A stretch of DNA of 64,000 bases from Natronobacterium texcoconense (GTDB taxonomy: Archaea > Halobacteriota > Halobacteria > Halobacteriales > Natrialbaceae): contig NZ_FNLC01000001.1 of NCBI RefSeq assembly GCF_900104065.1, positions 558,001 to 622,000 of the forward strand. Direction: 5' to 3'. The notes under the pieces are model-generated. The model was not told the origin of the DNA and searched no databases. It worked only from the letters and a program-made list of their open reading frames with translations. Below, piece after piece: positions 1,883 to 26,067 of the stretch (position 1 is the stretch's first letter; each line of letters begins with the position of its first letter). The translations under genes were made by a program, and so were the position numbers.

Positions 1883-3076
1883 TTACTCGTCGTCGCCGTC
1901 TTTCTCGTCGTCGCTGGCGTCCGTCATCCAGTCGTCACTGTCACTGCTCGAGTCGTCATCGCCGGTGTCCGTCCAGTGGTCTCCGTCGCGGTCGTTCTCG
2001 TCTTCGTCCGTCCAGTGATCAGTGGGTTCGTCTCGAGCCGTCGAGTCCGTTTCCTGCCCGTAATTGCGCGGACGGCGTTCTTCCTCGATACGACCGTCAC
2101 TGGCTCGACGACTCGAGCCACCGTCCGCTCGAACCGCTGCGCGCTGTTCGGGGATCAGGTCGAGGTCGCCGTCGGTGTCTCCGAGAATCAACAGCGCGTA
2201 GTACCGAACGTACGATCGGACCGGCGTCTCGAGCAGCGAGAGGACGTACGCGTAACAGAGGTACGCGACGAACAGTAGTGCGAACGCGACGACGACGAGG
2301 GAAGGGGCGATCATCTCGAGTCCAATTGTTAGCATAACGAATAGTATCAATCCGACGAACGTGACGACGAAACCGATGATCGCGAACAGGAACCAGAGCG
2401 TGACTCCGATCGTCCACGCGGCGGCGACGAACCCGAGGTAGCCTGCCGGGTTCGATGGGATCGTTCGCGCGAACTGGATCCACCCGCTGATCGGCCCACA
2501 GTCCTCGAGGAGCATGATCGGAACGACGAAAGCCGACGTCAGGAGGTCGACGAACCACCAGGCAATCGCGGCGAGGGCCACGAACGCGAGTATGCCGAAA
2601 AAGTAGCTGTCCGGCATCCCACTGGGTTCCGGGAAGTCGCCGAAAACGACCACGACGACGACGAGAGCGACGACTGCTGCCACCGCTGCGAGGAACAGCC
2701 CGATACGAAACAACAACAGCCACAGCGCGTGTCGGAGGTTCTCCCGCATGTACTGCCGAACGTGGACCGCCTCGGATCGAAGCGACTCGACGAAGACGAA
2801 CTCGAGAAGCGCCGCCAGATACGCGAACGCGAGAACGATTGCGAGAACGAGTGCGAGAACGAGTGCACCGACGAGGAGTATTCCCCAGAGTTCGTCCGTC
2901 GTCGCGTCGGCTACGGTCGCCGTTTCGGGGAAGACGTTGAAAACGTTCCAGAGGCTGCCGAATCCACCCATAAAGAGGAGGACGAGTGCGATCTTGAGCC
3001 AGCCGACGAAACCGATTTCGCCGAGATAGCGTCGGGTTACGGAGAGGGCGTCAGCGAGGTTAGCGGCTGCGTACAT
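1883..3076 (-). CDS. Haloarchaeal multi-pass membrane protein with acidic tail
   Basis: A 397-residue protein. About six strongly hydrophobic segments are spread over residues 20-290; short amphipathic stretches between them include LRSEAVHVRQYMRENLRHALW. From about residue 305 the chain becomes very acidic and low in complexity, with two copies of a DHWTD motif and a tail rich in Asp, Glu and Ser. This matches the layout of DUF4013/DUF7544-like haloarchaeal membrane proteins, but I do not recognise a function. Start ATG 3076 leads straight into the first helix region. The gene is followed on the plus side by an unrelated secreted-protein gene. Confidence 0.7.
   Translation of the reverse strand: MYAAANLADALSVTRRYLGEIGFVGWLKIALVLLFMGGFGSLWNVFNVFPETATVADATTDELWGILLVGALVLALVLAIVLAFAYLAALLEFVFVESLRSEAVHVRQYMRENLRHALWLLLFRIGLFLAAVAAVVALVVVVVVFGDFPEPSGMPDSYFFGILAFVALAAIAWWFVDLLTSAFVVPIMLLEDCGPISGWIQFARTIPSNPAGYLGFVAAAWTIGVTLWFLFAIIGFVVTFVGLILFVMLTIGLEMIAPSLVVVAFALLFVAYLCYAYVLSLLETPVRSYVRYYALLILGDTDGDLDLIPEQRAAVRADGGSSRRASDGRIEEERRPRNYGQETDSTARDEPTDHWTDEDENDRDGDHWTDTGDDDSSSDSDDWMTDASDDEKDGDDE
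2829..2864. repeat. Three tandem 12-bp repeats inside a membrane-protein gene
   Basis: Three consecutive 12-mers of the form gcgagaacgaNt run head to tail (2829-2840, 2841-2852, 2853-2864; the second and third are identical). They sit in the minus-strand membrane-protein gene and encode a repeating LVLA/IVLA hydrophobic segment of one transmembrane helix. Replication slippage is a simple explanation. Confidence 0.7.
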
Positions 3077-6139: not shown

Positions 6140-6226
6140 CGACTCGAGCGGCAGGCTCTGCCGGAACCGTTCGGTCTACTGTCATGGTAGTTGCCTTGAT
6201 ATAGGTAGGGTCGATAACCGATTCGT

Positions 6227-6682
6227 ATGGCTGACTGGGGCGACGGGGCGGTGACAGCAGAGTCGGAAGCACCGGTCAGATATTTCTGCAAGGGAACCGC
6301 CGCCATCGGTATCGGCTGTGTCGTGACGGTTGGGACGGCGCTTGTACTGGTTGCCGCCGACGCGAGCGGCTGGATCGTCCTCTGGTCGCCACTCGCTGGC
6401 GGGATGGTGACTGGAGCGCTCTCGCCGGCGAATTTCATCGGCAGTACACTGTCTGGGGCTGTCGGTGGCGTGTTCGTCACCGCCGCGATGGTCGGTAGTT
6501 TTCTCTGGTGGGCAGCGAACGCGTCACCGCCGACGGCCAGTGCTGGGATGGCGATCATCGCCACACTTGCAGTTCTCGTCGCGCTGGGTGTGGTGCTCGT
6601 CTTGCTCACGACGGTCGGTGGGCTCCTCGGTGGCGTAATCCGTCGTGCCTACGAGCACGAACCGGATCGGACTCCCGAATGA
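6227..6682 (+). CDS. Small four-helix haloarchaeal membrane protein (DUF5518-like)
   Basis: 151 residues with four hydrophobic segments (about 24-46, 51-66, 74-98 and 108-136). Gly- and Ala-rich helices and the motifs WSPLAGGMVTGALSPANFIGS and GGVFVTAAMVGSFLWW recall the DUF5518 group. No function is known. A TATA-like GATATAGG lies about 30 bases before the ATG. The gene stands between meaB and a hydrolase gene, all on the plus strand, but gaps of 80-90 bases suggest separate promoters. Confidence 0.65.
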   Translation: MADWGDGAVTAESEAPVRYFCKGTAAIGIGCVVTVGTALVLVAADASGWIVLWSPLAGGMVTGALSPANFIGSTLSGAVGGVFVTAAMVGSFLWWAANASPPTASAGMAIIATLAVLVALGVVLVLLTTVGGLLGGVIRRAYEHEPDRTPE

Positions 6683-6759
6683 GGGTCCAGCACACTGTGA
6701 TCGCTCAGCGATTGCAGGGCAACCGCAGTTCTAAGACAATCGCCGTGATACCGCTGCGT

Positions 6760-7701
6760 ATGAAAGCCCGAACAGTTCTCGGCACAGCAATCGGCACCGT
6801 CGGTGCAGCCGTCGTCGGGAACCGGCTGCTCACCAAACGTGCAGGGGATCTCGACAACCCGCTGCCCGGTATCGAACGCACCTACCGATGGCGGGGAATC
6901 GAGACGACCTACACCGTCGCCGGCGACCCGAACGATCCCGAACTACTGCTCTGTCACGGGGTCTACGCGGGGGCGAGCAGCCACGAGTTCGAGCCGATCT
7001 TCGAGCAACTGGCCGAAGACTACCGCGTTATCGCGGTCGACCTCCCCGGTTTCGGCCGTTCGGAGCGGCCGCCGCTGGTCTACTCGCCGACGCTGTACGC
7101 CGAGTTCCTTCGAGACTTCTCGGAGAATGTGAGCGACGAACCGATCGTCGTCGCGTCGTCGCTAACCGGCACGTTCGCCGTCGACGCCGCCGACGAGACC
7201 GAGTTCGACCACCTCGTTCTGATCTGTCCGACCGAAGAGACCGCCCCGGAGCGACCGTGGCTGCGTACCCTCCTGCGGACGCCGGTCGTCGGCACGACGC
7301 TGTTCAACCTGCTCTCGAGCAGGCCCTCTATCCGGTACTTCTACGATCGGGACGGCTACTACGACGCCGATCGGATCGACGACGAGGAGGTCGCCTACGC
7401 CTGGGACAGCGCCCACCAGCCGGGCGCGCGGTATGCGCCCGCCTCCTTCGCGTCCGGGACGCTCGATCCGGAGTTCGACCTGGCGACCGAACTGGCCGCC
7501 CTCGAGACGCCGACGACGCTCGTCTGGGGTCGAGACGCCGAACTCGTTCCGCTCCGGAAAGGACGAGACCTCGCCGATGCCGCGGACCTGGAACTGGTCG
7601 TCATCGATTACTCGACGCTGTTGCCCCACGCCGAGCATCCGGAGAAGTTCGTCGAGTACCTGACTGCGGAACTGTTACACGCCGGAATCGATCACGAATA
7701 G
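6760..7701 (+). CDS. Alpha/beta-fold hydrolase
   Basis: 313 residues. The first ~30 residues hold a possible membrane-anchoring helix (TVLGTAIGTVGAAVVGNRLL). The hydrolase core follows, with the oxyanion loop LLCHGVYAG, strand VIAVDLPGFGRSE, and an elbow reading VVASSLTGTF. The elbow serine is in an S-S-L-T-G context rather than a clean GxSxG. A cap domain lies in the middle. The acid residue falls in LVWGRDAELVP and the catalytic His in LLPHAEHPEKF. Family members include esterases, epoxide hydrolases and dehalogenases; the substrate cannot be told. The ATG at 6760 is preferred because more upstream starts would overlap the preceding gene. Confidence 0.82.
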   Translation: MKARTVLGTAIGTVGAAVVGNRLLTKRAGDLDNPLPGIERTYRWRGIETTYTVAGDPNDPELLLCHGVYAGASSHEFEPIFEQLAEDYRVIAVDLPGFGRSERPPLVYSPTLYAEFLRDFSENVSDEPIVVASSLTGTFAVDAADETEFDHLVLICPTEETAPERPWLRTLLRTPVVGTTLFNLLSSRPSIRYFYDRDGYYDADRIDDEEVAYAWDSAHQPGARYAPASFASGTLDPEFDLATELAALETPTTLVWGRDAELVPLRKGRDLADAADLELVVIDYSTLLPHAEHPEKFVEYLTAELLHAGIDHE

Positions 7702-7726: not shown

Positions 7727-8581
7727 TCAGAACAACGGCTCGGGCGTTGCCGGCGGCGTTCGTTTGTGTTCGCTCTCTTCGTGGAGCGTCTCGACGTGTT
7801 CGACGACCTCGACGCTCGTATCGGTAAGACGCGCAACGACCGACGCGGGCAGGTTGCCGTCGATATAGAGCGCGAGGATCGCATCGAGCGTATCGTAGTC
7901 GACGCCGAGTTCTTCCTCATCGGTTTCGTAGTCGACCATGCCGCCGGTCGGCGTCTTCTGGACGAGTGATTCGGGGACGCCGAGGTGGGCGGCGACCTGC
8001 CGAACCTGCTGTTTGTAGAGGTTGCCGAGCGGATTACAGTCGACGCCACCGTCGCCGTACTTCGTCACGTAGCCCGTCGCGAGTTCCGCGCGGTTCCCGG
8101 TCCCGAGGACGAGTCTGTTCTCGCGGCCAGCGACGAGATAGGTGATCGTCATGCGCACTCGAGCGCTGGTGTTCCCGACGTACCGGCCTCCCCAGCGATC
8201 TTCGGACTCGTTGTCGTCGCTGGCGTCGACGTCGGCGAGCAACCGGTCGACGGCCGAGTCGATCCCGATTACGTCGTACTCGATGCCGAGGTCTTCGGCG
8301 ACGCGTTCCGCGTCGCTCATGTTCTCGTCCTCGTTGACGGCCTTGGGAAGGATCAGCCCGTGGACGGCGTCGGCACCGAGACTTTCGACGGCGAGGTACG
8401 CGACCGCCGTACTGTCGATCCCACCCGAGAGCGCGATCTCGACGCCGTCGGCGTCCGCTGCCTCGACGCGATCGCGGATGAAGGTCGTGAGATGATCGAC
8501 CTGTGTCTCGATCTCTGCTTCCGAAAACTGGAGGTTTACCGGATCGATCTCTGCTCGTGTCTGGGCGTAGAGGTTCGCCAT
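7727..8581 (-). CDS. nadE: NH3-dependent NAD+ synthetase
   Basis: 284 residues. It amidates nicotinic acid adenine dinucleotide to NAD+ with ATP. The PP-loop SGGIDS is at 52-57, in EIALSGGIDSTAVAYLA. ARVRMTITYLVA, VLGTGNRAELATGYVTKYGDGGVD and the C-terminal QKTPTGGM-YETDEEELG loop are the classic NAD- and ATP-contacting segments. There is no glutaminase domain, so it uses ammonia. An acidic insert (VDASDDNESEDRWGG) precedes the RYVGN segment, as in halophiles. The ATG at 8581 fits the family length. It converges with the hydrolase upstream of it. Confidence 0.95.
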   Translation of the reverse strand: MANLYAQTRAEIDPVNLQFSEAEIETQVDHLTTFIRDRVEAADADGVEIALSGGIDSTAVAYLAVESLGADAVHGLILPKAVNEDENMSDAERVAEDLGIEYDVIGIDSAVDRLLADVDASDDNESEDRWGGRYVGNTSARVRMTITYLVAGRENRLVLGTGNRAELATGYVTKYGDGGVDCNPLGNLYKQQVRQVAAHLGVPESLVQKTPTGGMVDYETDEEELGVDYDTLDAILALYIDGNLPASVVARLTDTSVEVVEHVETLHEESEHKRTPPATPEPLF

Positions 8582-8680
8582 GCGAACGCCCGGGTTAGGG
8601 CCAGTGCGACGGAAAAGGGATGTGCTTTCGGAATCCGTCGGTTTCGGTGAACGACCCGCGGTCGTCGTACGGTGATCCGA

Positions 8681-9067
8681 TCAGGCCGGACTGAATTCAA
8701 CGACCCGCTCGCCGGTCGTTTCCGAGACGGTAATCGAAATTTCGACCGTCAACCCGTTTTCGACCGCCTCGAGGTCGATCTCGACGACTTGTCCGGTCAG
8801 TCGAACCGCTCCGAAGTCGGCGATCGCCGTCGCGTACGGCGCGTCCTCCTCGAAAGCGGGCGTGGGGACGTGCGTGACGGTAAACGTCGCTATCTCGCCC
8901 GTCTCGGGAAGCGACGTTTCCTCGAGGTCGGTCGCGCCACACTCCGGACAGACTCGTCGTGGCGGCAGGGAGCCGTGACCGTCGGGGCACTCGAGGTAGT
9001 ACGCCTCGCCGTCCTCGGCGGCGTCTAACCAGTCGTCGAAGCCGGCGTCCTGGACGTCGTCGCTCAT
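8681..9067 (-). CDS. DUF35 zinc-ribbon/OB-fold acyl-CoA-associated protein
   Basis: 128 residues. The N-terminal rubredoxin-like zinc ribbon has ECPDGHG and RRVCPECG. It is followed by an OB-fold that starts TGEIATFTVTHVPTPAF and ends with the GLTVEISITV strand. DUF35 proteins pair with SCP-x type thiolases or hydroxymethylglutaryl-CoA synthases and stabilise the acyl-CoA channel between enzymes. The start ATG at 9067 overlaps the thiolase stop by 4 bp, so a thiolase-DUF35 complex is the natural reading. Confidence 0.88.
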   Translation of the reverse strand: MSDDVQDAGFDDWLDAAEDGEAYYLECPDGHGSLPPRRVCPECGATDLEETSLPETGEIATFTVTHVPTPAFEEDAPYATAIADFGAVRLTGQVVEIDLEAVENGLTVEISITVSETTGERVVEFSPA

Positions 9068-25243: not shown

Positions 25244-25839
25244 GATTTGTATTGGTTATCGGTTGAATGTCCTTCCCCTTGTCAGACGTGTCTTCGAACG
25301 GATGGCGACTGGGTCGACGTGAGTAACCCCACTTTTCCCGTCGCCGTGTCACGTTCATGCGACACTATACCAACCATATCTAAGCGGCAGTATAAATAAG
25401 TTAGTATTTTCTATTCACATTATTGGTGTGACAATAGTGGGTTGGGAATATCTATGGCGCATGAATAGACGATCATCTAACTTCAGCCGATAATAGTGGA
25501 CTAACTTTGTATGATGGTTTCCGCAATCCGATGGACATTCCCATACAAAAATAATCAATTGTGTAGTATAGCAGTGGACAGTTCTTCCTGTGCGGGTAAC
25601 CCAACTTTGAAACGAGTAACCCCGTATCGTACCGTTTCCTGCTGATTGGGAGCGAACGCAGTCACTCTCGAAATCGGGTTCCTGGCCGGTAGTATCGTTT
25701 CAGAATTCAGTGCCAACAGGTAACCGTGAAGTGTCCAATCCGAATCAGCAACTCGTCAGAGCAACGTCTCTCGTCATCGCGAAACTGCGTCGCTATTTCG
25801 AACGGACGTCACCCGGAATTGTCGTTCGAACCAAAACGA
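25244..25839. other. Non-coding, relatively AT-rich region upstream of dppA
   Basis: No convincing gene lies here on either strand. On the minus strand a TATA-like CTTATTTATA (25400-25391) would give a leader of over 100 bases before dppA. A GTAACCC-ACTTT motif occurs at 25323-25335 and 25596-25608, and a shortened GTAACCCC at 25616-25623. The base composition is visibly lower in GC than the flanking genes. This fits either a long regulatory region or decayed inserted DNA. Confidence 0.5.
25323..25335. promoter_or_regulatory. Repeated GTAACCC(C/A)ACTTT motif upstream of dppA
   Basis: This 13-base motif lies about 80 bases before the dppA start. It recurs with one mismatch at 25596-25608, followed by GTAACCCC at 25616-25623. 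It could be an operator, but only the repetition supports this. Confidence 0.3.
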
Positions 25840-25863
25840 TAGCGGGAGGTAGATTTGAACTAC
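25840..25863 (-). repeat. 24-bp exact duplicate of the 3' end of tRNA-iMet
   Basis: The 24 bases are identical to 25993-26016. They cover the discriminator base, the 3' acceptor strand and nearly the whole T arm of the initiator tRNA gene, in the same orientation, 153 bases downstream of the original. The match stops abruptly at both ends. Such duplicated tRNA 3' ends are the usual footprint of tRNA-targeting integrases (attL/attR), though no integrase gene lies between. Confidence 0.8.
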
Positions 25864-25921
25864 GCAAAGACGGACCTGCTCGCTACGCTCGCAGGTTGCG
25901 ACTTTTCTCGTTCAAATCTAC
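25849..25921. repeat. Inverted repeat built from the tRNA T arm
   Basis: Perfect 12-bp arms (25849-25860 and 25910-25921) enclose a nested hairpin. The left arm belongs to the duplicated tRNA end and the right arm is an inverted copy of it. Inside, ACCTGC/GCAGGT pairs again around a TCGCTACGCTC core. Confidence 0.75.
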
Positions 25922-25929
25922 GCGGCGTA

Positions 25930-25991
25930 TTTTGACGAATTACGGACTCACTCCTCACTATGCTCGTCGTTCGTCGTCGAATTCGTCAAAA
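25930..25991. repeat. Second inverted repeat next to tRNA-iMet
   Basis: Perfect 12-bp arms TTTTGACGAATT (25930-25941) and AATTCGTCAAAA (25980-25991) flank 38 bases and end one base short of the tRNA gene. It could act as the tRNA terminator or as part of the inserted structure. Confidence 0.7.
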
Positions 25992-25992
25992 G

Positions 25993-26067
25993 TAGCGGGA
26001 GGTAGATTTGAACTACCGATCTGCGGGTTATGAGCCCGCCGGAATCTCCTGGCTATCCCATCCCGCT
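25993..26067 (-). tRNA. Initiator tRNA-Met (CAU)
   Basis: The minus strand folds into a full cloverleaf of 75 bases without encoded CCA. The acceptor stem AGCGGGA pairs with TCCCGCT, including an A1-U72 pair; the anticodon stem is GCGGG/CCCGC around the loop CTCATAA (anticodon CAU); the T arm is GGTAG-TTCAAAT-CTACC; the discriminator is A. The run of three G:C pairs next to the anticodon loop and A1-U72 mark it as the initiator rather than the elongator. There is no intron. A TATA-like CTTAACT lies about 25-30 bases upstream (26097-26091). Confidence 0.95.

Follow-up and report, generated by a model that had tools for sequence, protein, structure and literature searches.

Hairpin cassettes ending in a copy of the tRNA tail, a widespread family downstream of haloarchaeal tRNA genes

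A repeated tRNA 3′ end and two hairpins at tRNA-iMet

The window (the whole stretch of DNA analysed here, 64 kb from Natronobacterium texcoconense) carries a tRNA-iMet gene followed, along the tRNA strand, by a partial copy of itself. The preliminary description of this locus reported a direct repeat of 24 bases, and we confirm it: TAGCGGGAGGTAGATTTGAACTAC is present at 25840-25863 and at 25993-26016 in the same direction, with 100% identity and a start-to-start spacing of 153 bp. Since ARAGORN places tRNA-Met(CAT) on the minus strand at 25992-26067, the repeat represents the 3′ end of the tRNA (T-loop, 3′ strand of the T-stem, 3′ acceptor strand and discriminator). The final three matching bases, TAC, are probably a chance match rather than tRNA-derived, because in 77 units of the type described below the tRNA-derived identity stops sharply at nt 53/54 and at nt 73.

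Two further elements were missing from the preliminary description. The first is a third copy, in inverted orientation (the antitail), which forms a helix, P1, with the tail copy, a hairpin lying between the two; the second is another hairpin, located directly 3′ of the tRNA. The 12-mer GTAGATTTGAAC has three matches (with at most one mismatch) in the 64 kb, against 0.07 expected, and three matches were reached in no shuffle. Along the tRNA strand the order of parts is tRNA tail, hairpin A, antitail, hairpin B and tail copy (Table 1). The predicted fold of the 158-nt iMet stretch (−56.1 kcal/mol, z −3.8) consists essentially of hairpins A and B. Covariance model R1 matches 25852-25918 on the minus strand with 68.8 bits, the iMet unit itself being in the training set. 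An open frame of 107 aa (25710-26033, plus strand, GRFELRKDGPARYARR...GGRFELPICGL) runs antisense to the tRNA and the cassette; it is almost certainly not a gene.

Table 1. Coordinates of the features (window positions, except in the last line)
Feature	Position	Strand	Basis
tRNA-iMet gene, anticodon CAT	25993..26067	minus	ARAGORN tRNA-Met(CAT) 25992-26067; Rfam RF00005, 58.5 bits, 25993-26067
Native tail, tRNA nt 53-73, GTTCAAATCTACCTCCCGCTA	25993..26013	minus	sequence; limits from the identity profile of 77 units
Hairpin A, directly after the tRNA, begins with a T4 run	25930..25991	minus	repeat search, RNA fold
Arms of hairpin A, 12 bp, perfect	25980-25991 / 25930-25941	minus	inverted repeat
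Antitail, inverted T-loop and 3′ T-stem, GTAGATTTGAAC	25910..25921	minus	inverted repeat, fold, P1 covariation (122 units)
Hairpin B, GAGAAAAGTCGCAACCTGCGAGCGTAGCGAGCAGGTCCGTCTTTGCGTA, module common to other tRNA loci and genera	25861..25909	minus	fold, covariance model, related copies
Tail copy, nt 53-73 of tRNA-iMet	25840..25860	minus	direct repeat; 24-nt identity reaches 25863
Whole tRNA-tail cassette (hairpin A, antitail, hairpin B, tail copy)	25840..25992	minus	153 bp period
Integrase of the G096 element	L230 (G096:C1:1214000-1233900), 6188-7303	minus	

Distribution, anatomy and folding of the units

The iMet repeat is a member of a family of haloarchaeal hairpin cassettes, ~100-150 bases long, that is widespread and apparently undescribed; a search of open-access full texts, a coverage outside which subscription journals lie, yielded no description of such units. 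A DNA search with the hairpin B region found four further places in the same genome, beside tRNA-Glu, Ser, Ile and Ser genes, and each of the four copies terminates in the tail of the adjoining tRNA, not in the iMet tail. When the flanks of the 43 tRNAs detected in the window's genome were fetched, copies of the tRNA's own tail were present downstream of 25 and upstream of none, while foreign tails, used as a control, gave matches in 8 of 1548 trials. A second survey, with tails normalised to nt 53-73, covered three haloarchaea from three families: the window's genome and two genomes from other families within the same order, G096 and G312. Own tails were found downstream of 26/41, 21/42 and 7/19 tRNAs, respectively, and upstream of 0, 1 and 0; the foreign-tail controls gave 0/1086, 1/1088 and 0/198. 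In a large archaeal class, arrays of such units appear to stand behind about every second tRNA gene. An array has one to four repeats behind a tRNA, and the first copy is mostly offset by 75-175 nt from the tRNA across many tRNAs and species. In G048, a genome of the same phylum that falls outside the order and belongs to a different family, own tails occur downstream of 3/24 tRNAs and upstream of 3/24, which probably reflects tandem tRNA genes.

A covariance model built on the antitail-B-tail segment detected 90 distinct places in the three genomes, of which 85 follow a tRNA at a distance of up to 700 nt and share its orientation; the chance expectation for matches near a tRNA is about 2%. 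Two of the remaining five lie behind a tRNA-Pro(CGG) gene absent from the tRNA list and another two at the far ends of integrated elements. The model had no matches in two genomes outside the order, G048 included. The number of matches per genome was 4-9 in four congeners (at a threshold of 1e-6) versus 32 in the window's genome (at a threshold of 0.01). The pattern GATTTGAA-N25-55-TTCAAATC occurs in 46 of 53 Halobacteriales genomes, with a maximum of 17 per genome; of the 242 genomes from the rest of the phylum, 15 have one match apiece, which is background. All 50 named iMet loci, from Haloferax to Halococcus, have a tail copy about 100-270 nt from the tRNA; these loci were picked by an exact-match scan, so they indicate spread and not frequency.

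In the identity profile of the 77 units, values rise from about 0.3 (nt 49-51) through 0.75 (nt 52) to 0.86-1.00 inside the tail, then drop to 0.52 at +1 and to about 0.3 at +6 and beyond. The 3-mismatch threshold is partly responsible for the inner values; the outer values are free of that selection. An inverted T-loop stands ahead of the tail copy in 64 of the 77 units, mostly at 26-60 nt, and extends into the tRNA's own T-stem by 2.0 nt on average, compared with 0.97 for foreign stems. What typically comes after a tail is a T-rich start with a hairpin A. Hairpin B exists in a few types, with fixed boxes beside the T-loop (e.g. NYAG...CGTRG) and freely varying stems. Near-identical B modules are found at different tRNAs and in different families (e.g. 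tcagaccgaggttctgcg...cgcaggttctcgggcgtgg); no flipping of hairpin B was seen.

Two further features of the units recur. Some tail copies at unrelated tRNAs (tRNA-Lys, Thr and Pro of G000, Phe of G096 and Pro of G312) have an extra pyrimidine in the T-loop (TTCAYAATC, TTCGACATC), which would form a bulge in the antitail-tail helix and make the copy unfit to serve as a tRNA end. An apical motif (CGAACGAAGTGAG, CGAGCGAAGCGAG) is present at the apex of hairpin B and in many A hairpins; tandem G-A pairs and a GNA loop would be possible only on the tRNA-sense strand. A search of the hairpins by eye gave no convincing kink-turn.

Over 59 units, fold z averages −5.2 for the antitail-B-tail segment, whose sense strand is stabler than the antisense strand by 46:11 (p = 4e-7), whether RNA or DNA parameters are used. 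The T-stem pairs 62, 63 and 64 and the pair B2:B-2 are formed in 122 units more often than in any of 5000 shuffles, a test that overstates significance because the unit sequences are related. With non-iMet units alone, from many different tRNAs, the counts for 62, 63, 64 and B2:B-2 are 0, 5, 2 and 0 of 5000 shuffles.

Covarying pairs, a better folding sense strand, units always oriented as the tRNA and the T-rich start with hairpin A after most tails would all suit a structured RNA: the tRNA transcript would continue through the units and the hairpin would act in 3′ processing, in termination or as a small RNA, a situation that can be likened to the rtT RNA of the E. coli tyrT operon. Such a role would be the main functional alternative to recombination cassettes and, if real, would define a new class of tRNA-linked structured RNA. 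We regard it as unlikely. The units are dispensable, because their presence at the same tRNA differs among strains and congeners and many tRNAs have none; the conserved unpaired acceptor part of the tail copy is left unexplained; and tRNA is the only Rfam family above the gathering score.

Integrase insertions and changes in the arrays

In the preliminary description the repeat was taken as the attL/attR footprint of a tRNA-targeting integrase, perhaps the scar of an element since excised or deleted. Such an event does leave a direct repeat of the tRNA 3′ end on the downstream side, and tRNA tails do serve as integrase targets in the same order. Neither version could be sustained: the same spacing and hairpins stand behind most tRNAs of the genome, and the layout is found order-wide, each copy having the tail of its own tRNA. 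The offsets of the first copy, kept mostly within 75-175 nt over many tRNAs and species, and the conserved internal hairpin structure also make an att scar highly improbable. The iMet loci of relatives and the 50 haloarchaeal iMet loci compared contain no large element at the tRNA and no integrase gene or element between the repeats. The same arrangement in relatives with no insertion, which had been named as counting against the footprint, is largely what we observed, except that some same-genus relatives have no tail copy at iMet.

Searches for a partner site gave a similar picture. No distal tail copy was found downstream (over about 20 kb for most) of eight tRNAs lacking copies. In viral contigs the iMet tail occurs twice, both times inside a complete tRNA-Met gene, and the unit pattern does not occur; a phage collection gave no match. 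The plasmid tail matches that were inspected are real tRNA-Met genes on megaplasmids, with no attP among them.

Genuine integrase insertions were found at two other tRNAs, and they look different. In G312, tRNA-Ala(CGC) (788324-788395, minus strand) has no unit directly behind it; about 16.7 kb downstream lies CCCCGCGAGTCCA, a 13-nt att adjoining a phage-integrase gene (PF02899/PF00589; L229 (G312:C1:764000-783900), 7759-8814, minus strand), and then a tail array. The second insertion is at tRNA-Arg(TCG) of G096 (1166485-1166559), where CCTGCAACGCCCAT, a 14-nt att, lies about 55 kb downstream with another integrase (Table 1), and an array comes next. In neither insertion does the repeat reach beyond the acceptor side of the tail; the cargo is 17-55 kb. 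Integrases of this clade use 13-14 nt within nt 61-73, without an antitail hairpin, whereas the cassette copies have 20-21 nt and cover nt 54-73; att sites of SNJ2 are 13-14 nt as well (PMC8371274). An integrase insertion displaces an existing tail array from its tRNA rather than creating the array. The iMet repeat shows none of these features.

Units are gained, lost and recombined as modules, wholes as well as halves, as follows from differences among strains and congeners. At the plasmid iMet locus of Haloferax gibbonsii, strain ARA6 has a unit X and strain LR2-5 a unit Y, with the same flank after; at the iMet locus H. gibbonsii ATCC 33959 has unit Y and Haloferax Q22 has X then Y, and arrays X-Y-X and Y-X also occur in Haloferax. 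The tRNA-Ser(CGA) gene in the window's genus is followed by no unit in G001 and G004, by one in G003 and by three in G000, and in each case the same sequence lies downstream; the single unit of G003 is an A2-type half fused to a B3-type half. The same tRNA in G002 has its first unit broken within the antitail by an IS-like insertion starting with GGCTCTGTTGAA (L245, G002:C24, near 2716-2880). A block of two units is present in tandem copies in G096 (705396-705937). The suggestion in the preliminary description that this might be the smallest kind of integrative unit was therefore near the mark, because the duplication is part of something that is acquired and lost in one piece; the integrase footprint in that suggestion did not stand.

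Several further iMet loci deserve mention. Haloarchaeal megaplasmids have their own tRNA-iMet genes (L219, L220, L221 and L223), with tail arrays in Haloferax gibbonsii. On a Halomicrobium urmianum plasmid (L221, around 3001-3026) the tail plus TCAGCT (26 bp) is tandemly duplicated behind the plasmid-borne tRNA-iMet. In an H. gibbonsii contig (L094) part of tRNA-iMet is apparently duplicated around an N, probably an assembly artefact.

Changes of this kind could also occur in passive repeats, i.e. hairpin terminators between tail repeats, resized by homologous recombination or by quasi-palindrome template switching, with no dedicated enzyme and no function. The tandem two-unit block in G096, the X-Y-X and Y-X arrays of Haloferax and the 26-bp duplication in Halomicrobium agree with this explanation, as does the fit of the antitail to the resident tail, which is expected of quasi-palindrome correction. 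It leaves unexplained how tRNAs whose tails differ come to have the same B modules, why the copy is so sharply limited to nt 54-73, and the conserved flanking boxes NYAG...CGTRG and order-wide spread; we consider it unlikely. Snap-back copying as the only origin of the units was rejected, given B modules common to several tRNAs and families and fixed boundaries.

Possible recombination at tRNA tails and comparison with known systems

The repeat is a unit of haloarchaeal non-coding ‘tRNA-tail cassettes’, gained and lost as modules; our tentative explanation, to which we give a probability of about 0.45, is that this occurs by tail-directed recombination of a folded strand. Site-specific or hairpin-guided recombination would occur at the T-loop/3′ end of the tRNA, the putative site being the folded sense strand of the antitail-B-tail segment. 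The arriving unit would supply a fresh tail and a downstream hairpin A, so that the tRNA would be left intact and each insertion would be marked by a displaced tail; old tails would be pushed outwards in an array resembling integron cassettes without genes. Three observations suggest insertion of this kind: the copy spans the T-loop interior to exactly nt 73, the part that a unit has to bring along if the tRNA is to stay whole; inverted T-loops around a variable stem look like a folded recombination site; and modules reach tRNAs with differing tails.

Several observations weigh on the other side of tail-directed recombination. We found neither a recombinase nor a circular intermediate, nor an empty site that was clearly ancestral, and the loci with no unit could be precise deletions between tail repeats. 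Losses and duplications are explicable by homologous recombination between the 20-21 bp tails, for which a special enzyme is unneeded. The antitail of recently shared modules already fits the new tRNA, something that simple cassette transfer would not lead one to expect, and strand-specific folding is also compatible with an RNA role. The tendency of tails to be more decayed the farther they lie from the tRNA is only weak. The broader proposition, that haloarchaea run an unrecognised integron-like cassette system at tRNA genes in which insertion renews the 3′ end and archives the old one downstream, is speculative and somewhat unlikely. If the units are recombination cassettes, they would represent a novel type of site-specific array and would also renew tRNA 3′ ends in a new way.

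Integron cassette arrays with attC sites consist of head-to-tail units with inverted core boxes around a variable stem; attC folding is strand-specific and cassettes are exchanged whole. The tRNA-tail cassettes are alike in head-to-tail order, inverted boxes, strand-specific folding and whole-unit exchange, the gain and loss of whole units being seen in the Haloferax iMet and tRNA-Ser(CGA) comparisons, and the paired boxes have both structure and covariation, their use as a recombination site being putative. They differ in having no genes in the units, a core that is the T-loop of a tRNA and one array per tRNA.

The nearest precedent is E. coli tyrT (rtT RNA, Rfam RtT), where tandem repeats downstream of the tRNA each contain the tRNA's 3′-terminal bases. 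To our knowledge, repeats of the tyrT type are known for one tRNA; the cassettes, in contrast, have a separate tail for each tRNA and an antitail hairpin and extend over a whole order. No match to the RtT family was found with cmscan at E<=10.

The MITEs, SMRs and PATEs of Haloquadratum are mobile repeats whose targets are largely other mobile elements (PMC3119063). Like the cassettes, they are short, non-coding and palindromic, without a transposase (PMC3119063); unlike them, the cassettes stand behind tRNA genes in a single orientation and include the local tRNA tail. The units do not match a MITE, with its inverted termini, target duplication and dispersed distribution: 85 of 90 stand only downstream of tRNAs and in one orientation. 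The family lacks the tested features of att footprints and of MITEs and has those of integrons in part.

Haloarchaeal tRNA-integrated elements (SNJ2-type and other tyrosine recombinases) also leave the tRNA intact, with a piece of its 3′ end repeated directly downstream. They have 13-14 nt att sites, kb-sized cargo with an integrase and no antitail hairpin, whereas tRNA-tail cassettes have 20-21 nt copies and are gene-free, tandem and present at about half of all tRNAs. As the cassettes imitate att sites, repeat-based island finders will call false haloarchaeal islands; a remedy would be to demand a 13-14 nt core together with an integrase. At tRNA-Glu(CTC) of G000 (L057, G000:C2:696706), for which no distal tail copy lies within 40 kb, a frame near the tRNA, downstream of it, resembles by eye the N-terminus of a site-specific integrase.
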